A DNA stretch of 50,792 bases, taken from the IMG/VR virus record IMGVR_UViG_3300015366_000230, positions 1 to 50,792 of that record. One strand, written 5' to 3'. Below, in pieces: positions 648 to 48,470 of the stretch. A model generated the notes under the pieces. It was not told the origin of the DNA. It made no database searches and worked only from the letters and a program-made list of their open reading frames with translations. Position 1 is the first letter of the stretch; the number at the start of each line of letters is the position of its first letter. This DNA is from a virus. The translations under genes were made by a program, and so were the position numbers.

Positions 648-3600
648 TTAAATTACCATCCATCTTTGACCTGAAGAAACTGTTAATGAAACACCGCTTG
701 CAACAGTAATTGAACCTACAGAAAAGGCATTTGTTCCTGAAGCAATAGTGTAACTTGAATTTACGGTAGTTGAGTTAACAAAAAGACCGTTTGAAGCAAC
801 TACTTCTGGAGCAGATAAAGCGCCAGTAGAAGGATTAAAATTATATGCTGAATTGACATTAGCAGTGCCAAAAGTGCCAGAAGTGGTGCTATTAAATACC
901 GGATAGAAAGTAGCATTAGAACTGGTAGAAGTTACTGTAATTGTTGATCCTGCGCCTGAATATCCAGAATAGCCTGAAATACCCAAGCCACTATAACCTG
1001 AAATTCCTGAACCAGAATATCCAGATATACCCGAATATCCTGATGCGCCATTAGAACCTGTACCACCAGAATAGCCTGAATAACCAGAAGTCCCATTAGT
1101 TCCAGTACCGCCTGAATATCCAGAATAGCCCGATGTACCATTTGTACCTGTACCGCCAGAGTATCCGCTAAAGCCAGAATAGCCAGAAATACCAGAATAA
1201 CCAGAAATTCCAGAATAACCACTAAAGCCAGAATAACCACTTACTCCGCTTCCGCTATAACCACTTATTCCGCTAGTTCCTGAGTAGCCTGAGATACCTG
1301 AATAACCACTGTATCCACTTGTTGCTATTCCTGAGAAACCTGAGTAACCACTATAACCACTTGTTCCGCTTATTCCCGCTGTAATAGCTAAAAATAATGG
1401 ATGATTGTTTGCAAAATCAGTTGTGCCTGTGCCACCTGAAGATATAAGGCTAACTGGAACTGTCCAATAACTATTAGAAGTTCCAGCATTTATGTTTGTT
1501 GTTGCACCAGTAATTAACCATGACTGATAATTGGCACTTGCATTTTGATCTTGAATTGTAAATTTTTGTGTAGGTTGTAACAATGCTAAAAATATATCAA
1601 TATCATCGCCATTGTTTGTAAGATGATTAATATTAATTTGTGTAGCATTACTTTGTGTTGCAGTATTCCAAAGTAAATATCCACTTGCAGGTTGTCCACT
1701 TGTTTGGACTGCTTCTGCATAATATAAAAATAAACTAGATGATGAACCTTGTACACCTGAGAATCCGCTTAGTCCTGAGTAACCGCTTACACCCGACCAT
1801 CCGCTGTATCCTGAAAGTCCCGACCATCCCGATACCCCTGAGAATCCTGACCATCCGCTAGTTCCACTGTATCCCGATTCCCCACTCCAGCCACTGTAAC
1901 CCGATGTACCTGAGTAACCACTAAAGCCTGAATAGCCACTATAGCCTGATAAACCAGAATAACCACTTACACCACTTCCAGAGTAACCGCTTGTACCTGA
2001 GTATCCAGAAATGCCTGAGTAACCAGAAATTCCGCTTGCGCCTGAATAGCCTGATATTCCTGATCCAGAATAGCCAGAAATTCCTGAATCTCCGCTAAAT
2101 CCTGAGTAGCCACTTATACCACTATCGCCAGACCATCCAGAATATCCGCTAATACCAGAATCTCCGCTAAATCCAGAAATGCCTGAATCGCCTGAATAAC
2201 CGCTAAAACCAGAAATTCCAGAATCACCTGAATACCCATTTATTCCAGAATCACCGCTATAGCCGGAAATACCGCTATCGCCTGACCAACCAGAAATACC
2301 GCTATCGCCACTATAGCCAGATATGCCACTATCTCCAGAATAGCCACTTATTCCAGAGTCACCAGAAAATCCGCTAATACCACTATCTCCTGACCAACCC
2401 GAAATACCACTATCACCACTAAATCCGCTAATGCCTGAATCACCAGAAAATCCGCTATAACCAGAAATTCCTGAGTCACCAGAGAATCCAGATATACCAG
2501 AGTCACCTGACCAACCACTTATTCCTGAATCACCAGAAAAACCTGAGATACCGCTATCGCCAGAATAACCACTAATACCAGAATCACCACTATATCCAGA
2601 GATTCCTGAATAGCCTGATTCACCGCTATATCCTGATGTGCTATCTCCGCTATAACCAGAGAATCCTGAGTAACCAGAAAAGCCTACAATTTGACCAGCA
2701 TTAAACCATTCAGTACCATTCCATACCCACAAGTCACCATCAGAGATAACAATGTAGGCATCATTGACTTGATTGCCTGTAGGGGGTAAGTCAGCAGGTG
2801 TTGGTACTGATCCCAATAAATTAATGGATGTACCTTGTTGACCGCTATAACCCGAAAAACCTGAATAACCAGAAATACCAGAATAGCCTGAAGTGCTATC
2901 TCCTGAGTATCCTGAAATACCAGAATCACCAGATAAACCACTTGTTCCAGAATAACCAGAATAACCACTGATACCTGAATAACCTGATGTGCCTACACCA
3001 GAAAATTGTGTCCAAATAATAGGGGTTACATTAATAGTTCCAGCTACAGGAGCAATAACTACCCAACCTGTACTGCCATTAATAGTTCCATATTGAATAA
3101 AAGTAAAAGCACCGGGTACTTCTGACCAGATATTCATATCTAGCGATCTTGACCAAGCAGTTTCAGATACTACATAAATTCCATTTTCAGCAGGATCATC
3201 TTGGTTTTTTACACAAACTCGATCACCAACTAAAACAGTGTAATTATCAATAGTTTGTAAACCATAAAGATCAATGTTGTTACCTAAAGGAGTGGTAGCG
3301 CATTGACAAGATGCTTTAGCCACCATGCCTTGAGCTATTGCATCGGCATAGGCTTTATTTACTAAATCATTTGGGTTAACAGGCAAAGTATTAACTTGAC
3401 CTGTTACTGTAAACATATTTTGAAATACAGCGGAATACAAACCTTCTTGTAAACCTTCAATTTGAACAAAAGCTCGACCTGTTCCCGCAGTCATTAAATT
3501 GACTACAAAATCACCAATAGACCAAGCTCTAGCGACTGTTCCTTCTTGACCTCTAATAACTGTCCATACATTGCCAGTTACATTCGTAACATAAACAATC

Positions 3601-3773
3601 TCATTAATCAGATTATTTTTTGCGCTAACAATCGTAGCGGTAAAGGCTTGCCCTACTGCTGGGCTAGGAAAATTAACTGAAGTGCCACTAGCGACTGTAA
3701 TCGTTGTGGCTGTGCTGCTAACAGGCAGCGCAAGCGCAGTTTGGGCTTGATTAGAAAATAATAGTATTGTCAT
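648..3773 (-). CDS. Long collagen-like (Gly-X-Ser) tail fiber, 1041 aa
   Basis: The N-terminal ~110 residues (TTITVASGTSVNFPSP, IRGQEGTVARAW) are shared with the N-terminus of the 459-aa fiber at 4069-5448 and are probably the particle-binding anchor. From about residue 262 the chain is mostly Gly-X-Ser triplets with X = Tyr, Ile, Asp, Phe or Trp, that is collagen-like periodicity but almost without proline. Globular inserts interrupt it: about residues 312-365 (LLGSVPTPADLPPTGNQVND) and a ~125-residue domain beginning SSSLFLYYAEAV. The last ~110 residues are non-repetitive. A trimeric rod with globular knobs is the likely shape. The repeated DNA makes this gene prone to copy-number change and misassembly. 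Confidence 0.85.
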   Translation of the reverse strand: MTILLFSNQAQTALALPVSSTATTITVASGTSVNFPSPAVGQAFTATIVSAKNNLINEIVYVTNVTGNVWTVIRGQEGTVARAWSIGDFVVNLMTAGTGRAFVQIEGLQEGLYSAVFQNMFTVTGQVNTLPVNPNDLVNKAYADAIAQGMVAKASCQCATTPLGNNIDLYGLQTIDNYTVLVGDRVCVKNQDDPAENGIYVVSETAWSRSLDMNIWSEVPGAFTFIQYGTINGSTGWVVIAPVAGTINVTPIIWTQFSGVGTSGYSGISGYSGYSGTSGLSGDSGISGYSGDSTSGYSGISGYSGFSGYSGQQGTSINLLGSVPTPADLPPTGNQVNDAYIVISDGDLWVWNGTEWFNAGQIVGFSGYSGFSGYSGDSTSGYSGESGYSGISGYSGDSGISGYSGDSGISGFSGDSGISGWSGDSGISGFSGDSGISGYSGFSGDSGISGFSGDSGISGWSGDSGISGFSGDSGISGYSGDSGISGYSGDSGISGWSGDSGISGYSGDSGINGYSGDSGISGFSGYSGDSGISGFSGDSGISGYSGWSGDSGISGYSGFSGDSGISGYSGSGISGYSGASGISGYSGISGYSGTSGYSGSGVSGYSGLSGYSGYSGFSGYSGTSGYSGWSGESGYSGTSGWSGFSGVSGWSGLSGYSGWSGVSGYSGLSGFSGVQGSSSSLFLYYAEAVQTSGQPASGYLLWNTATQSNATQININHLTNNGDDIDIFLALLQPTQKFTIQDQNASANYQSWLITGATTNINAGTSNSYWTVPVSLISSGGTGTTDFANNHPLFLAITAGISGTSGYSGYSGFSGIATSGYSGYSGISGYSGTSGISGYSGSGVSGYSGFSGYSGISGYSGISGYSGFSGYSGGTGTNGTSGYSGYSGGTGTNGTSGYSGYSGGTGSNGASGYSGISGYSGSGISGYSGLGISGYSGYSGAGSTITVTSTSSNATFYPVFNSTTSGTFGTANVNSAYNFNPSTGALSAPEVVASNGLFVNSTTVNSSYTIASGTNAFSVGSITVASGVSLTVSSGQRWMVI

Positions 3774-19490: not shown

Positions 19491-20330
19491 TTATCGCTTA
19501 ACATTTTCAGTATTAAACTTCACGACCCGATGAGTTGGGAGCTTGAAGTCACCTAACCATGCTTCCATATCACCACGGTATTCAGTGATGGTACGACCAG
19601 CTTGGTCTTTCTTGTGCAACGCGATCAATTGACCTTTTGCGATTGCGCCAGTTCCACGGGAAGCAGCCAAAGCGTCAGCGTAAACACGTTTTTCAACAAG
19701 AGCCAACATTGCGTTGTCTTTAATTGAATTTACGTTAATACTCTTCATTTCATCGCTATGAGCTTGCAAACCGCGCACCATACGCTTACGATAAGCCATT
19801 AAAGTTTCGCCTTGCAATGGGCGTGATGCAGATTTACCAAAAGCAGAATAAACAGAATCAGCTTTAGCTTGTGCATCGCACATAGCAGCTTCTTCGTCAT
19901 CTTTTTTAGCAGCTTCTTCATCGTCATCTTTACGGTCATCTTCTTCATCGTCGTCTTTTTTGAACTCCATGTGACCCGGATGTTCAACTTCGCCTTCGTC
20001 GTCTGGCTTAATTTCACCAGCTTTGCCGTGCTCTTTAGGATCAGATCCTTCTGCGTCTTTTTTAGCTTTACGCATCATGAATTTTTTAGCTTTGGCTTCA
20101 GACTCATCGTCATCTTTCTTAGCTTCTTCTTCTTCGTCGTCGTCGCATGCTTCCATGTCGTCATCTTTTTTCGCTTTAGCTTTTTTATCAGCCGCAGTTA
20201 CTAGTGGTGGCGCAGGAAGGTTTTTTTCCATTTCATCTAAACGGGACATTGTTTTGCCCAGTAAAGACATAATGGCATCTAATTTATCGCCTTGGGCATC
20301 TGCCTTTGGCTCAATCTTATTTTCAGTCAT
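19491..20330 (-). CDS. Scaffold-type protein (279 aa)
   Basis: The start was set at the ATG at 20330 (MTENKIEPKADAQGDKLDAI): it overlaps the upstream TGA and is preceded by GAGGTG. The N-terminal ~40 residues form a coiled coil, followed by ~110 residues of almost only Asp, Glu and Lys (KKDDDMEACDDDEEEEAKKD). The C-terminal part is helical (RPLQGETLMAYRKRMVRGLQ). Charged, helical proteins between protease and capsid genes act as scaffolds. The same C-terminal pattern is seen in phage proteins of unknown function, so scaffold is an inference. Confidence 0.65.
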   Translation of the reverse strand: MTENKIEPKADAQGDKLDAIMSLLGKTMSRLDEMEKNLPAPPLVTAADKKAKAKKDDDMEACDDDEEEEAKKDDDESEAKAKKFMMRKAKKDAEGSDPKEHGKAGEIKPDDEGEVEHPGHMEFKKDDDEEDDRKDDDEEAAKKDDEEAAMCDAQAKADSVYSAFGKSASRPLQGETLMAYRKRMVRGLQAHSDEMKSINVNSIKDNAMLALVEKRVYADALAASRGTGAIAKGQLIALHKKDQAGRTITEYRGDMEAWLGDFKLPTHRVVKFNTENVKR

Positions 20331-22140
20331 TTTCAGACACCTCATTGTTAGTTAATAAAACTCCAGCGGCGTCGCCGCCTTTGTCCCATACTCCCTTTGA
20401 ACCCCTAGCTTTCGTAACGATTGCTATGTGATCCAGCAGGAATGGCACACCCTCAATCAAGAGTGGCTCGCCATTCTCGGTTGTAAGTGTAATGTTACCA
20501 GCAGTATTATCAAATACAACTGCTGGGGAAGTTGATACCTCACCTTCCAAAATTTCTTTAATTGCATCTTGGTCATAGATTTTTGCAATACCCCAGACTT
20601 CATCACCTTTAATGTAAGGTAGCAAAACGGAACCAACGGCACGGTTTTTAAATTCTTCTGTTGTTAATACTTGAGTTTCAGGGTGATCCATAATCACCAT
20701 TAAGCCATTACAGCGTTGTAAAAACTCGTTGTTTAAGTACAAAGATGGATCGCGCCAAACGTGTTCACCAATGCTTGAACGGAATGCCAAACCTGTACCT
20801 GTAATGCGAATTGCTAACAAAGCAATATTGGCATACATCTGTGGGCTGGCTAATAAATCTTCAGAAATCAGTTTAGCTACGTCAGTTTCGGTTTTAGCCA
20901 TAGCAATTTTGAACGCATTTTCTAAGCCCGGGTGAAGTGGCATCGGAGGCACCGTTGGACTACACCAATCGGAACCCGAAGATTCGTAGTTAAGCTTTAC
21001 TTCTTCTTTTACAAAGTTGTGAGCAACGTAATAGCAAAATTGTCCATCATCATAAAGAACTTCTAAATCGCCTTTATAATCGATGCCCGTTTCTTCTTTA
21101 CATTCACGGCGAGCGCATTCTTCAAGGGTTTCATCGCCTTTTTGATGTCCGCCGGGGATACACCAAGTACCGGGATAATCCCCACCACCCATACCTCTGC
21201 GAATCATTAAAACTTCTTCGTTAGGAGTGATAAACATAATTCCCGCAGCTCTACCTTGAGCGCCACCCATATTATCTTCAGGCTTTACTTCTTTTGGTGG
21301 TTCTGGTACTAATGCTGCGTTTTGTTCAATTGGCTCGTTTTCGGCATCTGGTACGCAATTCGGTACGCTTTTTCCGTCTTTTTCTTTCATACCATATTGG
21401 GTATAACCTTCCCAACATGGATCATCATCTGGAATAGCTTGTGCATATTCAATTAATGCGTCGCACATTTCTTCTAAATGGCTTTGCGCTTCATCAGCAT
21501 CGCATTTCCATTTTCGCAATGACTTATTGATTCTTGAATCAGGATCGTGAGCCGTCTTTTCAGAAGTAAGTTTGGCTTTCATGCCCTTCATTCGAGCGCA
21601 AAATGATTCTTTTCTTGACCCACCTTTAGGCTGAGGGGCTTTTAAATGCGCGCCATGTTCTTTGTTGTAAGATTCACGACCTTTTTCATTTAAACCACCA
21701 TTTTTGTTTTTGCCTTCTTTGGTCTGCCAAGCTTCAGAATCTTCAACACCAAAACGCGGTACGACTTCCTCATCGCAATCGTCGTCTTGTTTCATGGATT
21801 TGACATGTTGAGCAACTTGATAAAGTTTTTCGCCAATGTCTTTAATTTGCAATTTGCGTAGTTCGTGGCTTAATTCGCCTTTGCGAACCATGATATTGCT
21901 ATCAGTTTCAAACTCTGTTGGAGCTAAAAGTACAGGTGCAGATACCAAAGAATCTTCTTTTAAGGCTTTTACTTCCATTTCTTTTAATAAAAGTTCATTA
22001 AGCCACTCAAGATTTTCAGCTTCGCTGTCATCTTTGTGTTTTACAAATTTTTCGCCAACAGATTGTGGAATACCAATATTAGAATGCCCTGCGGCAGCAG
22101 CGTACATCGCTTTTCTTTGGTTTTCCGACTTAAATGGCAT
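20323..22140 (-). CDS. Head maturation protein: DUF6321-Nudix-DUF2213 protease-like fusion (605 aa)
   Basis: Several parts are visible. The N-terminus MPFKSENQRKAMYAAAAG is a motif seen in phage head proteins. About residues 139-205 read GGLNEKGRESYNKEHGAHLK...PKGGSRKESFCARM, the DUF6321 pattern. About 295-385 is a Nudix hydrolase domain with a complete Nudix box at 331-353 (GX5EX7REXXEEXG; RECKEETG). About 445-590 resembles DUF2213 (RDPSLYLNNEFLQRCNGLMV, EGEVSTSPAVVF), a phage family placed beside scaffolds and thought to include prohead proteases. The gene lies between Mu F-like protein and scaffold, the usual protease position. Nudix substrate is unknown. Confidence 0.75.
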   Translation of the reverse strand: MPFKSENQRKAMYAAAAGHSNIGIPQSVGEKFVKHKDDSEAENLEWLNELLLKEMEVKALKEDSLVSAPVLLAPTEFETDSNIMVRKGELSHELRKLQIKDIGEKLYQVAQHVKSMKQDDDCDEEVVPRFGVEDSEAWQTKEGKNKNGGLNEKGRESYNKEHGAHLKAPQPKGGSRKESFCARMKGMKAKLTSEKTAHDPDSRINKSLRKWKCDADEAQSHLEEMCDALIEYAQAIPDDDPCWEGYTQYGMKEKDGKSVPNCVPDAENEPIEQNAALVPEPPKEVKPEDNMGGAQGRAAGIMFITPNEEVLMIRRGMGGGDYPGTWCIPGGHQKGDETLEECARRECKEETGIDYKGDLEVLYDDGQFCYYVAHNFVKEEVKLNYESSGSDWCSPTVPPMPLHPGLENAFKIAMAKTETDVAKLISEDLLASPQMYANIALLAIRITGTGLAFRSSIGEHVWRDPSLYLNNEFLQRCNGLMVIMDHPETQVLTTEEFKNRAVGSVLLPYIKGDEVWGIAKIYDQDAIKEILEGEVSTSPAVVFDNTAGNITLTTENGEPLLIEGVPFLLDHIAIVTKARGSKGVWDKGGDAAGVLLTNNEVSEND

Positions 22141-42275: not shown

Positions 42276-42364
42276 AAAAAAGTTTCCCGAACGGGAAGAA
42301 TGTAATAAAAAGTAGGCAAAAATAGTAAAAAGTTACCGAACGGGACATTTTGTAAGGAAAAGTA
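42276..42364. repeat. Two copies of an AAAAAGTTWCCGAACGGGA unit
   Basis: The units at 42276-42314 and 42327-42364 share AAAAAGTT, (C)CCGAACGGGA, TGTAA and AAAAGTA in the same order. The first contains the inverted repeat TTCCCG-AA-CGGGAA. Confidence 0.85.
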
Positions 42365-42498: not shown

Positions 42499-42930
42499 TT
42501 AAGGACTCTTTAATAAGTCATAAACTTTAACCGGTTCGTGGCTTTTTAAATCCACATTGCAAGCCCATTTAACCGCTTCTTCTGCTGTTAGCCCCATTCT
42601 CATGCAGACTTCTGCCGCCATTGCACCAGAGCCAATAGCCATAAAGGTTCTAACGCGTTCCCATTCTAAATCATCATTACAAGAAAAAAGCCCTTCGGCA
42701 GTTAGCTTTAAGAAAGAGCTGCCAGATTTTAGTTTGGGCTTGGTTTTTTGTTTTTTATTAATGTATTCAACGACTTTTTCGCCATCTGACCAATTGCCAG
42801 CAACGCCAAGCCATCCGTTATCTATTTGAAGAATCTTATCCTCATAATATTTGATTCCCGCATCGTCATCGGAAAACTGGCTATCTGCCACCATTACTTT
42901 ATTAATCCAATCGCCAACGATAGTAGTCAT
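42499..42930 (-). CDS. HslV/proteasome-like Ntn peptidase (143 aa)
   Basis: Starting at the ATG at 42930, preceded by AAGG, the protein begins M-TTIVGDWINKVMVADSQF. HslV begins with the same TTIV after the Met, Thr being the catalytic nucleophile after Met removal. The Asp of VADSQ matches the HslV Asp17 site, and Lys in YYEDKI fits Lys33. Further on, FMAIGSGAMAAEVCMRMGLT and AEEAVKWACNVDL align with the AIGSGG...AREIAEKAL part of HslV. No HslU partner is in the window. It could degrade host proteins or work with host HslU; activity is not shown. Confidence 0.75.
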   Translation of the reverse strand: MTTIVGDWINKVMVADSQFSDDDAGIKYYEDKILQIDNGWLGVAGNWSDGEKVVEYINKKQKTKPKLKSGSSFLKLTAEGLFSCNDDLEWERVRTFMAIGSGAMAAEVCMRMGLTAEEAVKWACNVDLKSHEPVKVYDLLKSP

Positions 42931-42932
42931 GT

Positions 42933-43916
42933 TTAAACCTTGTTTATACAACCTCTAAACTCGAACTCGCCATTTTGCTCATCGCTGACCATAATCAACT
43001 CTGGCATTAACATTCTACCTTGGTCAAACGACAGCAATACAAAACCCGATCGCCAGTCTTTGGGGGAATCTTCGCAATATTCAAAGGTAGCGCTCATTGG
43101 ATCCGCCAAGCAGCCGGTCTGAACCCCGTAGAAGTTGCCCTGATAGTTACTGATTGGTTGCACCGCTAAGACATGCGTATGCCCCGTAATGATGTTGGTA
43201 TTGCCCGCTGCCAGCAAGTTGCTGTAACCTGCCGTGCGCCCGCCCTTGAACCGGTGTTTGACCACAGTATCCTCACCAATCCAAAAGCTCCAACAGGTTT
43301 CCCATTCAGGAAAGTGATATTTGAGGCTAAAACCGTCTACACCGCTATATTCTGGCACCTTATTGACCAACCAAGATTCGTAACGCATGTCGTGATTGCC
43401 CAGCGTCCAGATTAAACGACAGCCAGCCGGCTTATGTTTAACGATTTGATCTAAATGATAACGGCAAGACTCTAATTCTTGCAGTACCGTAGGCTTGGCG
43501 TCGTAATTAATGGACGGAAAACGGCTCAAAACCTGTCCGTCGAACGCGTCGCCATTGCAGATGATGACTTCTGGCTTGAATTCTTTAATCATCAACAGCA
43601 GGGCTTTAAATGCCGTTGTAGTGGTATCTGTAAAATGGGCGTCTGAAAACACAATAACGCGCTTCACCTTGTCAACGTCTATGCCTCTTCGGACGTTATG
43701 GGGTGCAAGCTCTATCTTTTTAGGTTTTTCTTTTTTGGGATCTCGTAAAGAACCGTGCGTAGGCAATTCGATGTTATGCCGAATTTGAATAGCGGATTTA
43801 CGATTAGATACGCTTCTAGGGTTTATACCTAGTTTTTTTCCTACGAGAGTTGGCGACCCTAGCTTTTTCCAAAGTTTAATAAACTCTTCATCGGAACACA
43901 CAGGCTTAAACGGCAT
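42933..43916 (-). CDS. Metallophosphoesterase with N-terminal HTH (327 aa)
   Basis: All calcineurin-like motifs are present: FSDAHF (DxH), NGDAFDG (GDxxD), TLGNHDMRYE (GNHD), and GHTHVLAV (GHxH). The first ~55 residues (EEFIKLWKKLGSPTLVGKKL, GINPRSVSNRKS) look like a helix-turn-helix, so it is probably a DNA-targeted nuclease or phosphatase. It ends two bases before the HslV-like gene, and the two are expressed together. Length and fusion are usual for the phage form. Confidence 0.85.
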   Translation of the reverse strand: MPFKPVCSDEEFIKLWKKLGSPTLVGKKLGINPRSVSNRKSAIQIRHNIELPTHGSLRDPKKEKPKKIELAPHNVRRGIDVDKVKRVIVFSDAHFTDTTTTAFKALLLMIKEFKPEVIICNGDAFDGQVLSRFPSINYDAKPTVLQELESCRYHLDQIVKHKPAGCRLIWTLGNHDMRYESWLVNKVPEYSGVDGFSLKYHFPEWETCWSFWIGEDTVVKHRFKGGRTAGYSNLLAAGNTNIITGHTHVLAVQPISNYQGNFYGVQTGCLADPMSATFEYCEDSPKDWRSGFVLLSFDQGRMLMPELIMVSDEQNGEFEFRGCINKV

Positions 43917-43973: not shown

Positions 43974-44186
43974 TTATAGTGATTTTCCTGCTATTTTTTT
44001 AATCTTTTGTTCCATTTCCCAATCTTCGCGACATTCTGCGGAACAAAATCGCCCTGTAGGGATTAGTTCATTACAGCAAAGGCAATGCCCTGTGTAAGGG
44101 TGTTTCTTTTCATTACGAATAGCTTTAATAGCTAAATCACGGTGGAGGGCTTCCATATCGGATGCCTCATCAAAAAAATCGCTCAT
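43974..44186 (-). CDS. TraR/DksA-like C4 zinc-finger protein (70 aa)
   Basis: Contains HCLCCNELIPTGRFCSAECR, a CxxC...CxxxC zinc knuckle as in DksA/TraR C-terminal fingers, with a short helical N-terminus carrying acidic residues (SDFFDEASDMEALHRDLAIK). TraR binds the RNA polymerase secondary channel without ppGpp; this protein may modulate host transcription in the same way. It overlaps the endolysin gene by four bases (ATGA). Confidence 0.75.
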   Translation of the reverse strand: MSDFFDEASDMEALHRDLAIKAIRNEKKHPYTGHCLCCNELIPTGRFCSAECREDWEMEQKIKKIAGKSL

Positions 44187-44632
44187 GCTAGCGTACCGCC
44201 TACATTTTCATAAAAGGCTTCAAGATGAGCCATTGAATTAGTCCTCTGCCCATAGGGGCTATTAGGCAAACTAGCCCAAATACGATTGCATCGAATAATA
44301 GCATCTTGGAATCTCCCATCGTTAATTAGCATATCAGCGCCAGTTTCTTTAATCAGTTCTAGCGCGATCATATCTTGTGCGTGAGGAGAAAAATCAACAA
44401 CGCCTACGCGAGTCTTGTAGGCGTCGTATATACGTTCTAATATTTGATATTTACCAGCCGCCGTAGAAGTCAAACCGTTAATAGTAATGTGCTTACGGGG
44501 ATGGTCTGCATAGCTGGCAAACAATGTTCCGCCATACAGAACATTGTAACCGTTGTCAGAATGAGCTAATAAATCTCTGCCTAACTCAGAAAAACCAATC
44601 GTTTTAAGTAACGCTATTTCGTTATTGGTCAT
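44183..44632 (-). CDS. Endolysin, lambda R-type lytic transglycosylase (149 aa)
   Basis: The sequence follows lambda R closely: FSELGRDLLAHSDNGYNVLY, GGTLFASYADHPRKHITING, LTSTAAGKYQILERIYDAYK, DFSPHAQDMIALELIKETGA and CNRIWASLPNSPYGQ. Glu16 in GFSE is the expected catalytic acid. No signal sequence is visible, so a holin should release it. It cuts the glycan strands of peptidoglycan. Confidence 0.93.
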   Translation of the reverse strand: MTNNEIALLKTIGFSELGRDLLAHSDNGYNVLYGGTLFASYADHPRKHITINGLTSTAAGKYQILERIYDAYKTRVGVVDFSPHAQDMIALELIKETGADMLINDGRFQDAIIRCNRIWASLPNSPYGQRTNSMAHLEAFYENVGGTLA

Positions 44633-45077
44633 CTGGCAATCCTAGTCTTTCGCGTTCGTACTTTTGTAATAACTCATATTTAAGCGTTACTTCAGCGCAT
44701 TCTCCAGCAAGTAGTGTGTACTTGGCTTCTGCATCAATTCTGGGGGAGGCGGTTTGTCCTGATAACACGGTACCGGTACTTGATGGGCGCACCCCGACAG
44801 CATAATAACGGCGCAAAATGATAGTTTTAGAAGCGAGTTCATTTTGAAGTCCTTTAACAATTAACTTATGGTTTTCATCTTTTTGTTTGTTTTCAACTTC
44901 CTGTTGCGTAACAAGCGCTTGCTGTTGCGCTTTGTAGTTAACAAACTTAGTATGCTCCCAATGCCAAGGAGTATATCCAACGCAAAATAGCACTACAACA
45001 GCCAGTCCAATTTCAAGGTAAGTGAGAACATTACCAGAGAAAAAACCAACAACACTACTGAGAAGAGTTTTCCACAT
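44622..45077 (-). CDS. i-spanin, Rz-like (151 aa)
   Basis: A hydrophobic helix near residues 20-40 (YLEIGLAVVVLFCVGYTPWH) is followed by a long coiled coil (AQQQALVTQQEVENKQKDEN). This is the inner-membrane spanin layout. A lipoprotein frame nested in it (44687-44842) is the partner o-spanin. It overlaps the endolysin gene by eleven bases. Spanins fuse inner and outer membrane at the end of lysis of Gram-negative cells. Confidence 0.85.
   Translation of the reverse strand: MWKTLLSSVVGFFSGNVLTYLEIGLAVVVLFCVGYTPWHWEHTKFVNYKAQQQALVTQQEVENKQKDENHKLIVKGLQNELASKTIILRRYYAVGVRPSSTGTVLSGQTASPRIDAEAKYTLLAGECAEVTLKYELLQKYERERLGLPDDQ
44687..44842 (-). CDS. o-spanin lipoprotein, Rz1-like, nested in Rz (51 aa)
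   Basis: In another frame of the Rz gene, ATG at 44842 is preceded by AAAGGA and gives MNSLLKLSFCAVIMLSGCAH. This is a lipoprotein signal peptide with lipobox LSGC (Cys18). A Pro-rich part follows (QVPVPCYQDKPPPPELMQKP), as in lambda Rz1, and the stop is TAA 44687-44689. The mature lipoprotein would sit in the outer membrane and bind Rz. All three features together make this call strong although the gene is short. Confidence 0.9.
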   Translation of the reverse strand: MNSLLKLSFCAVIMLSGCAHQVPVPCYQDKPPPPELMQKPSTHYLLENALK

Positions 45078-45767: not shown

Positions 45768-46202
45768 CTATAGGAAGTTTAACACTTCTTGCGGTTTTAC
45801 AAAAGCATCTGGATTATGCTCCGTATGCTCCCACCAAAGAAATTGGTTAGGCGCCAAATATTTCCGATCGCGTAACAAATTAGTGTTTTCTGGGTGCCCA
45901 AAGATATTAGGGTCAGATACAGACCATAAAACAATACCCGGTTTACCTTCGCTCCAAGCTAGATGCTGAAAAAAGCTATCTACGCCGATCCACGTTTTGC
46001 AATTTTTAATGAGTTGGCGCAACTCAATCATAGGTAAATTCTTACAAAAATCCGGTACTAACTGAGTTTCTCCTTCTATGCCGACTTGAACAACTTGCAT
46101 AGTTTTTTGCAATTCTTGTACAAGTTCTTCCCAATATGGATAGTTTTTAGGATTTTCTTTGCCATTTCTCAATGGTTTTGCATAAGGATGAATTAAGATC
46201 AT
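45768..46202 (-). CDS. GT9-like glycosyltransferase C-terminal half (144 aa)
   Basis: The sequence ILIHPYAKPLRNGKENPKNY, LIKNCKTWIGVDSFFQHLAW and KPGIVLWSVSDPNIFGHPEN is the C-terminal Rossmann domain of heptosyltransferase-like (GT9) enzymes, which binds the sugar nucleotide. The N-terminal half is missing here and appears as the C-terminal extension of the preceding gene, with an ATGA overlap. The two may pair into one transferase. Confidence 0.7.
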   Translation of the reverse strand: MILIHPYAKPLRNGKENPKNYPYWEELVQELQKTMQVVQVGIEGETQLVPDFCKNLPMIELRQLIKNCKTWIGVDSFFQHLAWSEGKPGIVLWSVSDPNIFGHPENTNLLRDRKYLAPNQFLWWEHTEHNPDAFVKPQEVLNFL

Positions 46203-47176
46203 AGATACAGCTTTCTAAAAGCATTCTCTAAACTATCTTTCCATTTCCATTGATCCATTTTTTTATAGATATTCCACTGATCTAAATTGCCAAATAAGGC
46301 TTGTGCTTCGGCTATTGATTTGCCGGGTACTACTTCCGGGTAGCAAGTGAAAACAAGAGGGCTGGCAATATTAGGCAGCACACGACTAAAAACGATATGG
46401 TCGCCAAGCCCAGAATTAAGAACCACAATATTATTTCCACGATAGCGGAGGAAATTTCTGAATATAGCTTCGTCATGGTTAAACAATTCCTTTTTAGTTT
46501 CGCTACGAATACCGCCTTCTGGATTCTTTAAATGCCAAGAGTTAGCGTTAGGGATAACTATAACTGCATATCCCTTTTGATGTAACCCATAGGTAAATAG
46601 CGTTTCTTCACGATGTGCTACTCGGGATAACCCTAAGTTATAGTCATGCACCCCAGATCGGTACAAAAAGGAACAATGCAGATGTTCTACAAAATTAGAC
46701 TTTTCAATGTAGTTCCATTGAATATTAGGCTCTATATCAATATGCTTAATTTGACCTGTGGCATTGACTTGTAGCAATGGCGGGGTAAGAATAGCCCCAC
46801 CGACTGCACCCACTTTAGGTACTTGTGTTGCATAGGTATATAGGCTTTTTAAAACATTTGGCTCTGGAATACAGTCGTCATCGACTCGCCACACCCATTC
46901 AAAACCCTGTTTACAAGCGATGTCATTTGCCATTTGATGGATATGGTGCTGTCCTTTTTTAGGAGCAAATAGCCATTCCCATTGAATGCCTTTAATGTTT
47001 AAGATTTCAAAGATATGCCTGTAGATAAACTCTTGTCGCATATCCTTTGGATCGTCATTGTCATCAAAAATAATCAGCTTATCGGGAAGCTGATCTTGAT
47101 TGAGAATGGCGGTTAAAACTAAGGGCAGTGTAGTGAAATACCGCCCCCGGGTGGCTACGGAGCAGAGTACTTGCAT
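46199..47176 (-). CDS. GT2 glycosyltransferase with C-terminal GT9-like half (325 aa)
   Basis: Residues 1-240 form a GT-A family 2 transferase (CSVATRGRYFTTLPLVLTAI, LIIFDDNDDPKDM, VWRVDDDCIPEPNVL with DDD). From about 245 the sequence NNIVVLNSGLGDHIVFSRVL PNI is the start of a GT9-like Rossmann domain (the GD motif), and it ends after about 80 residues. The next gene supplies the second GT9 domain. The enzymes may glycosylate virion proteins such as the fibers, or the host surface. Confidence 0.75.
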   Translation of the reverse strand: MQVLCSVATRGRYFTTLPLVLTAILNQDQLPDKLIIFDDNDDPKDMRQEFIYRHIFEILNIKGIQWEWLFAPKKGQHHIHQMANDIACKQGFEWVWRVDDDCIPEPNVLKSLYTYATQVPKVGAVGGAILTPPLLQVNATGQIKHIDIEPNIQWNYIEKSNFVEHLHCSFLYRSGVHDYNLGLSRVAHREETLFTYGLHQKGYAVIVIPNANSWHLKNPEGGIRSETKKELFNHDEAIFRNFLRYRGNNIVVLNSGLGDHIVFSRVLPNIASPLVFTCYPEVVPGKSIAEAQALFGNLDQWNIYKKMDQWKWKDSLENAFRKLYL

Positions 47177-48453
47177 AGCATTAAATTGGCTCGGTTAGAT
47201 TCTGAAATTGGCATGGGTTCATTTGACAAAATACCATGCTCGTTAATAAAGGTAAACTCAAACCCGGGAAAGTTGCTTTCATTTAAGCCATGCAGCTGAT
47301 GATGCTCTCCCCAAAATCCTTTAGGTTCATTCCAAGGAACAGAAATCAATAATTGTTTGCAATGATTTTTGAGTTTTTCAACTATTTCTAACCCATTATC
47401 TAAATGCTCAATGACTTCAAAAGCAACAATCGCATCGTATTGGTCAAGTTCATAAGTATTAATGTCCGCCCATTCAAAAGCAGCATTTGGTCGCCAATCT
47501 TGATCTTTAGCTACTTCTACAATAATTGGATCGTAATCTAGCCCTAGATAGTTGGCATTGTCAGAAAAGAAATTGCAGCCATATCCAGTAGAGCAGCCAA
47601 TTTCTAAAATGCTTAACCCAGCAAAGTTTTTTCTAGCCCAGTTGTATCTTTGGGTTTCTCTAGGAAAAATAGTGTCACCTTTTAAAAACACTGCTCGCTC
47701 ATAATTATTGGATAGCAAGAATCGGTAGTAGTCTGGATTGTATTTTTTAGCCAATCTTAAAGAATTGGATTTAAAAGTGGCATCCCAATCTGGGACTAAA
47801 TTGACATCATGGACTGTACCTTCCCCTTGATGGTAAATTGGAAATCCGCCAGTAAAGTTATTACCTGTCCATTGTTTATCAAATACCTCTAAAACCTTAA
47901 AACCTGCTTTTTCAGCTTCAATACAAAACTCGGTATCTTCACCACCGCCTACTCCATATTCCTCATTAAGTAAGCCAATGGCATCAAATACTTTGCGATC
48001 AATCATTACACAGAAAAATACCGCAAAGTCCTTACCTGCGGGTGGAGAAAAGATTTTAATAATGCAAGAGATACCGCAATCAGGATTGGCAAAAGGTTGA
48101 TTCAATATCTCTAACCACTGATTTTTGCTTTGTTCTAGCAAAACAGTATCATTGTTTAACAAAATGATTTTGTCAGTTGTAGCCAGTTTAATGCCACTAT
48201 TACAGGCTTTTGAGTAACCTAATGGAATACTGTAAAACAAATAGTTAAAGTGTTTTGGCAATCCGAGATTGATGTATTTAGCTTCTAAATATCTAAGGTA
48301 GGCTAGGGTTTCATCGTTGCAGCCATTGGCAATAATGATAAGTTCAATGTCCTCAATATTGGTGTATTTAAAAATACTATCAATACAAGGTTTTAATAAA
48401 TCATCGCAATGATTATAAGTCGGTATAACTACCGAATACTTGGGGGATTGCAT
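47155..48453 (-). CDS. GT2 glycosyltransferase-methyltransferase fusion (432 aa)
   Basis: The start was set at ATG 48453, behind AAGGA; a GTG one codon earlier is possible. Residues 1-240 form a GT2 domain (YSVVIPTYNHCDDLLKPCID, IIIANGCNDE, IILLNNDTVLLE). From about 270 an SAM-dependent methyltransferase follows (LSILEIGCSTGYGCNFFSDN, YDAIVAFEVIEHLDNGLEIV). Such fusions occur in surface polysaccharide clusters and in phage glycan modules. It overlaps the next gene by 22 bases. Confidence 0.8.
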   Translation of the reverse strand: MQSPKYSVVIPTYNHCDDLLKPCIDSIFKYTNIEDIELIIIANGCNDETLAYLRYLEAKYINLGLPKHFNYLFYSIPLGYSKACNSGIKLATTDKIILLNNDTVLLEQSKNQWLEILNQPFANPDCGISCIIKIFSPPAGKDFAVFFCVMIDRKVFDAIGLLNEEYGVGGGEDTEFCIEAEKAGFKVLEVFDKQWTGNNFTGGFPIYHQGEGTVHDVNLVPDWDATFKSNSLRLAKKYNPDYYRFLLSNNYERAVFLKGDTIFPRETQRYNWARKNFAGLSILEIGCSTGYGCNFFSDNANYLGLDYDPIIVEVAKDQDWRPNAAFEWADINTYELDQYDAIVAFEVIEHLDNGLEIVEKLKNHCKQLLISVPWNEPKGFWGEHHQLHGLNESNFPGFEFTFINEHGILSNEPMPISESNRANLMLCKYSAP

Positions 48454-48470
48454 CACTAATCCTTAAAAAG

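Follow-up and report, generated by a model that had tools for sequence, protein, structure and literature searches.

What does a phage do with a small relative of HslV (ClpQ, the protease of HslUV), and does it need HslU to do it? The locus that raises this question lies in a window of 50,792 nucleotides, the whole stretch of DNA analysed here (IMG/VR virus record IMGVR_UViG_3300015366_000230). A preliminary description had noted a phage-encoded HslV-like protease without HslU, paired with an HTH-phosphoesterase (MPE in the following), and had put forward three modes of action: recruitment of host HslU, action alone, or a decoy subunit. Of these claims, the pairing with MPE turned out to tell us most.

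The gene and its surroundings

The gene is a real open reading frame, confirmed at 42499..42930 on the minus strand. Its coding part occupies 42502-42930, with an ATG at 42930 and the stop reaching 42499, and encodes 143 aa whose translation opens with MTTIVGDW. An AAGG resembling a Shine-Dalgarno sequence, read from the sequence at 42937..42941 (minus strand, to within a base or two), stands seven bases 5' of the ATG, within the terminal part of the MPE gene, whose stop codon ends 2 bases ahead of that ATG. A longer version starting at TTG (150 aa) is possible on paper; a Met-Thr (or Met-Ser) start is kept in all those relatives, from our set of 156, whose rows reach the start. Downstream, a terminator-like hairpin with a T-run, a consensus match only, is found at 42284..42297 (minus strand).

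Directly upstream on the same strand comes MPE, an HTH-metallophosphoesterase of 327 aa (42933..43916). It is preceded by a treble-clef-like ORF of 70 aa (43974..44186), which shows a weak DUF2116 match and is conserved in syntenic relatives, then by the endolysin (44183..44632; phrog_90, E=3e-38) and a candidate Rz-like spanin (44622..45077; weak match, E=0.007), all on the minus strand. MPE and the protease gene are the last genes after this lysis cassette and share the direction of transcription of the endolysin. Besides lysis genes, the record carries tail and DNA-replication genes; tRNA genes, sought in the window as a clue to the host, were not found.

Three other regions of the minus strand are worth recording in their own right. 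A glycosyltransferase run upstream of the lysis genes (45768-48456) includes a heptosyltransferase-like ORF and a gene in which a glycosyltransferase is fused to a methyltransferase. A 1041-aa tail-type protein (648-3773) consists mostly of Gly-Tyr-Ser-Gly repeats resembling collagen (Pfam Collagen, E=4e-56), with many tandem DNA repeats. Finally, a 605-aa head-region protein (20323-22140) joins DUF6321, NUDIX and DUF2213, placing a nucleotide-hydrolase domain inside a structural or maturation protein.

A PPH-type hydrolase with the predicted fold of HslV

The protein matches PHROG 1040, 'peptidase HslV family', over its whole length (E=1.9e-26). Its own match to Pfam Proteasome stays under the family cut-off (E=9e-4), while the same model recognises 24 of 40 relatives (best E=1.5e-8), and profiles made from the relatives reach about 1e-6 against solved chains of HslV, BPH and the proteasome beta subunit. 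An AlphaFold model built on a 40-row alignment (pLDDT 91.9, pTM 0.86) retrieves BPH and HslV as top Foldseek matches at about 1e-7; with VIA-align, HslV is the best structural match (Z 17.9 over 138 residues, 2.4 A). The protein is thus a proteasome-type Ntn hydrolase, as had been proposed. An NCBIfam search returned irrelevant matches only, far below cut-off. A single-sequence PDB search gave designed proteins only, headed by repeat proteins that aligned with the C-terminal helix, and was set aside as an artefact.

A family of this kind has been defined by Fuchs, Alva and Lupas (2021): PPH (proteasome homolog of phages), uncharacterised proteins of about 140 residues from tailed phages and their hosts, with no propeptide, no helix H2, no AAA+ interactor and no informative gene context (PMC8665760). 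Their catalytic Thr/Ser1, Asp17 and Lys33 and oxyanion Gly47 (PMC8665760) correspond to T2, D16, K32 and G45 of the window protein. With its 143 aa, its origin in a virus record, its Thr-Asp-Lys triad and its lack of propeptide, H2 and AAA+ partner, the window protein agrees with the published description in all features compared and fits PPH, a family that PHROG 1040 covers. Since 'HslV but no HslU' has also been stated for the Salmonella jumbo phage pSal-SNUABM-04 (PMC7823757), what was first described amounts to one more member of a family already in print.

The HslV-like character claimed at the outset stands for the fold, the N-terminal Thr nucleophile, Asp, Lys and the GSG loop, but not for identity with HslV, from which the protein differs by being about 30 residues shorter, with about 20% identity. 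HslV has two apical helices, H1 and H2, and a pocket for the HslU tail. In our model a helix at 47-58 is followed by coil (59-71) and a strand (72-77), so that H2 is missing; the aligned gap spans HslV 73-80, including Ala79 and Lys80, which line the HslU-tail pocket (PMC6429459). The absence of any counterpart to this segment rules out an assignment as HslV. BPH (beta-proteobacterial proteasome homolog; 5ovs, 5ovt, 5ovu), the top Foldseek match, likewise has no known unfoldase partner (PMC8665760); it differs in its greater length, its long acidic pore loop and its bacterial gene.

An initial scan of viral contigs by profile recovered the same clade only, and distant members then served as queries. 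The 156 distinct relatives compared here reach down to 20-30% identity. Relatives in bacterial genomes are two only, both distant (25-28%; Variovorax and a betaproteobacterial MAG). The N-terminal Met-Thr-Thr-Ile-Val, Asp16, Lys32 and the Ile-Gly-Ser-Gly at 99-102, on which the preliminary description had based its assignment, are all present, and their conservation goes well beyond chance. Position 2 is Thr in 152 of the 156 sequences and Ser, an accepted Ntn nucleophile, in the other 4. Asp16 and Lys32 occur in every one and Gly45 in 155; Gly100, Gly102, Ala106 and Gly113 are invariant. A propeptide is absent from every row that covers the start: Met immediately precedes Thr/Ser in 147 rows, and the remaining 9 begin at Thr. 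N-termini in which Thr or Ser follows Met are among those trimmed by methionine aminopeptidase. Purifying selection on the gene is strong in the window's clade, with a median dN/dS of 0.08.

From these sequence patterns, the protein is very probably an active-type peptidase. With a triad that is never lost and no propeptide, this would be far likelier than a dead decoy co-assembling with host HslV and poisoning it, since invariant residues and a low dN/dS are not what a catalytically dead decoy would show. Homology and small size are what speaks for the decoy; the invariance of the catalytic residues in 156 distinct sequences and the exchange of the gene for unrelated proteases, described below, make it the least credible of the modes proposed, with a chance we regard as minute.

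As for HslU, its absence from the record was borne out: the AAA and AAA_2 models detected no ATPase in the window, nor did AAA_2 in 22 phage records carrying PPH. Most proteobacterial hosts possess HslU. A phage lacking its own ATPase, with HslV as its closest solved fold, could in principle recruit this widespread host enzyme into a phage-host hybrid HslUV, as an alternative HslV. We consider this improbable: H2 and the pocket segment with Ala79/Lys80 are absent from the model, the loss of H2 is also reported for the family (PMC8665760), and the SprT-like proteases that replace the gene elsewhere need no HslU. Of the three modes, acting alone fits best, and the protein probably works without HslU, by itself or as an oligomer.

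A metallophosphoesterase with an exchangeable peptidase

The pairing with an HTH-phosphoesterase was upheld. The adjoining MPE matches Pfam Metallophos (calcineurin-like phosphoesterase) at E=5.6e-9, with 37.2 bits against a cut-off of 21.5. It displays the ligand pattern D-x-H, G-D-x-x-D, G-N-H-D, H and G-H-x-H, and the metal ligands D92, H94, D123, N174, H221, H246 and H248 are invariant in 26 relatives. Its model (pLDDT 82) predicts three helices at the N-terminus that would agree with an HTH. The core fold is nearest to YfcE, Vps29, the PolD DP1 exonuclease and Mre11 (Z 13-15). Mre11/SbcD, PolD DP1 and YfcE share both this fold and the metal-ligand pattern, but MPE has no sequence-level match to them, nor by sequence to any solved chain, and carries the HTH-like N-terminal helices. 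YfcE/Vps29 and LpxH match just as well, so that the predicted fold is compatible with a nuclease and with a phosphatase alike.

Among the 51 distinct PPH alleles of the window's clade, 38 have MPE directly upstream or downstream, and the pairs occur in both gene orders. To this we added loci fetched by MPE alone, with PPH ignored. The window's MPE retrieved 80 loci (L233-L312), of which 59 have an adjacent SprT-like protease, 18 PPH, 3 neither and none both. A second query, an MPE 36% identical to the window's, gave 74 further loci: 66 with PPH directly 5', 1 with SprT, 1 with another HExxH protein (5' of MPE, L330) and 6 cut by contig ends. Taken together, the 154 loci, many of them near-copies (at 90% identity the pooled set falls into no more than 28 MPE types), comprise 84 with PPH, 60 with a SprT-like protease, 1 with the other HExxH protein, 2 with an acetyltransferase, 1 with nothing and the 6 truncated ones; PPH and SprT-like protease never stand together beside the same MPE. 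A peptidase is therefore present in 145 of 148 informative loci. MPEs about 42% identical to the second query still adjoin PPHs only about 32% identical to the window's, which indicates that the linkage is old.

The SprT-like assignment rests on a member (P0002) scoring 28.5 bits against the Pfam cut-off of 25.6, several others falling below it, and on HExxH residues H77, E78 and H81, invariant in 9 members. The HExxH motif is uncommon, with 80 occurrences in the 4501 ORFs of comparable size in our set, most of which we take to be the SprT genes themselves. Annotated phages follow the same pattern: MW202674 has an unannotated SprT-like ORF directly 3' of MPE (L391:3948-4292), and in MW202879 a 'hypothetical protein' directly 5' of MPE (L392:2631-2990) carries HECLH. 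In two distant phages, Microcystis phage Mvi-Yong1342-1 and MW202691, no peptidase could be recognised with MPE. Judging by title and abstract, none of the papers retrieved on phage metallophosphoesterases together with SprT deals with such a pairing.

The replacement is exact. In one contig (L253), the endolysin (96% identical to the window's), the 70-aa ORF (96%) and MPE (85%) are followed by SprT and then by a 76-aa ORF (91%) and a 213-aa membrane ORF (94%); the gene order of the window is kept on both sides, with SprT in place of the PPH found in the window and in L239. In another (L268:3960-4310), a SprT-like zinc protease likewise occupies the very slot of PPH. When MPEs are grouped at 90% identity or more, PPH and SprT loci occur side by side in three of the groups. 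Parsimony on the MPE tree counts 5 PPH/SprT switches, and well-supported branches force at least 2 for the SprT label; the tree set includes loci fetched by PPH, which biases its proportions. The PPH profile found nothing in 11 whole SprT records (5/5 controls positive), and the SprT profile nothing in the window and five other records with PPH and MPE (4/4 controls positive). PPH and SprT-like proteases are thus exchanged between phages with closely related MPEs and syntenic surroundings.

Could the slot beside MPE simply be a variable accessory site for small mobile genes, its bias towards peptidases being historical? A GNAT acetyltransferase, recognised by a look at the sequence, lies 3' of MPE in two loci (L287, L303) where PPH or SprT is otherwise found, one slot is empty, and HNH nucleases that adjoin PPH elsewhere could mobilise it. 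We nevertheless judge this rather unlikely, as a peptidase is present in nearly all informative loci and the pairing holds whichever gene comes first, and even where MPE identity is down to 42%.

MPE is not a companion of every PPH, an idea that had to be dropped. In other genomes, PPH stands beside HNH nucleases or a DnaQ-type exonuclease, and in a distant clade (L157, L194, L223 and other loci of the L140/L141 clade) it sits inside a virion cluster ordered as scaffold, major head protein, adaptor Ad1, PPH, head closure Hc1, neck and tail terminator. Whole-record searches of PPH records with HNH, exonuclease and head-tail contexts found no MPE, while positive controls were detected; the linkage is therefore a property of one large group of PPHs. 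The virion cluster suggests a link to morphogenesis in those phages, and one function need not fit all PPHs. For the window gene itself, a role as virion-morphogenesis or maturation protease has a slim chance: the position between Ad1 and Hc1, downstream of the major head protein, is that of other clades, whereas here PPH lies beside lysis genes, the head region has its own DUF2213-bearing protein, and the SprT exchange is tied to MPE and not to head genes.

Two observations on these other contexts may be added. A small HNH endonuclease gene adjoins PPH in L020-L025, L069, L075-L081 and L082, on its 3' side in the clade of the window and on its 5' side in that of DSL-LC04; it is a possible vehicle for the mobility of PPH between phages. 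In Aeromonas phage 2L372D (L083, 3432-4885), two 'peptidase HslV family' genes lie side by side, the second of which is extended at its C-terminus and resembles the published RPC type; the pair possibly forms a two-subunit enzyme.

A proposed peptidase-phosphoesterase unit

The simplest reading of a threonine peptidase replaced by an unrelated zinc peptidase is selection for peptidase activity, which favours an active PPH and disfavours both HslU recruitment and the decoy. We lean towards PPH being a minimal threonine peptidase which works independently of HslU and, in this phage group, joins MPE in a two-gene unit as the peptidase component; that MPE and the peptidase make a functional pair is, taken separately, reasonably probable.

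The invariant active sites, the purifying selection, the linkage and the exchange are observed, and the fold is predicted; from these we infer the catalysis, oligomeric state, substrate and timing of PPH as follows. Removal of Met1 would expose Thr2 as the N-terminal nucleophile, and Asp16, Lys32 and Gly45 would complete the active site. Having no ATPase of its own, the enzyme would act alone or as an oligomer, independently of HslU. As the unit tolerates a swap of its peptidase for a SprT/WLM-like zinc protease, selection at the slot would be for a peptidase activity beside the phosphoesterase. In the likeliest sharing of tasks, MPE would act on DNA, or on another phosphodiester, aided by its HTH, and the peptidase would clear protein attached to or guarding this DNA late in infection.

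The substrate in this last step is suggested by analogy. SprT-type proteases are best known for degrading proteins crosslinked to DNA, with the proteasome as an independent second protease in Xenopus extracts (Larsen et al. 2019, PMC6375733). SPRTN and the proteasome thus put a zinc protease and a proteasome-type protease to one job, the repair of DNA-protein crosslinks; their system is eukaryotic and ubiquitin-linked, and its likeness to the phage pair is an analogy only. Together with an HTH-like MPE of a fold that contains nucleases, this points tentatively to a DNA-bound protein as substrate, a reading to which we assign a low probability. By the same token, it is conceivable, if not especially likely, that freshwater tailed phages possess an undescribed unit for processing protein-bearing DNA, composed of an HTH-MPE and an exchangeable peptidase: PPH (threonine), a SprT/WLM zinc protease or the other HExxH protein.

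Alternatively, PPH and SprT may be interchangeable anti-defence effectors that degrade a host defence protein while MPE hydrolyses a nucleotide signal. The accessory position at the end of the operon, the mobility and exchange of the genes and the GNAT in the same slot are compatible with such a role, and the fold of MPE permits nucleotide hydrolysis. The conserved HTH-like N-terminus and the pairing with a single family of MPEs point instead to work on DNA; a PADLOC search without a match argues weakly in the same direction, as PADLOC lists defence and not counter-defence proteins. On balance, we find the anti-defence role doubtful.

What is new here is the MPE partner and the peptidase swap. 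Whereas published PPHs lack an informative context, the group to which the window belongs offers a first good clue to the role of the family, and leads to a testable hypothesis, namely a peptidase activity serving one phosphoesterase. It also provides a label for small ORFs next to metallophosphoesterase genes of phages that are listed as hypothetical or carry no annotation. If the substrate is a DNA-bound protein, these phages would use two unrelated proteases as animals do with SPRTN and the proteasome; if true, the unit would be a viral counterpart of these eukaryotic alternatives for DNA-protein crosslinks.
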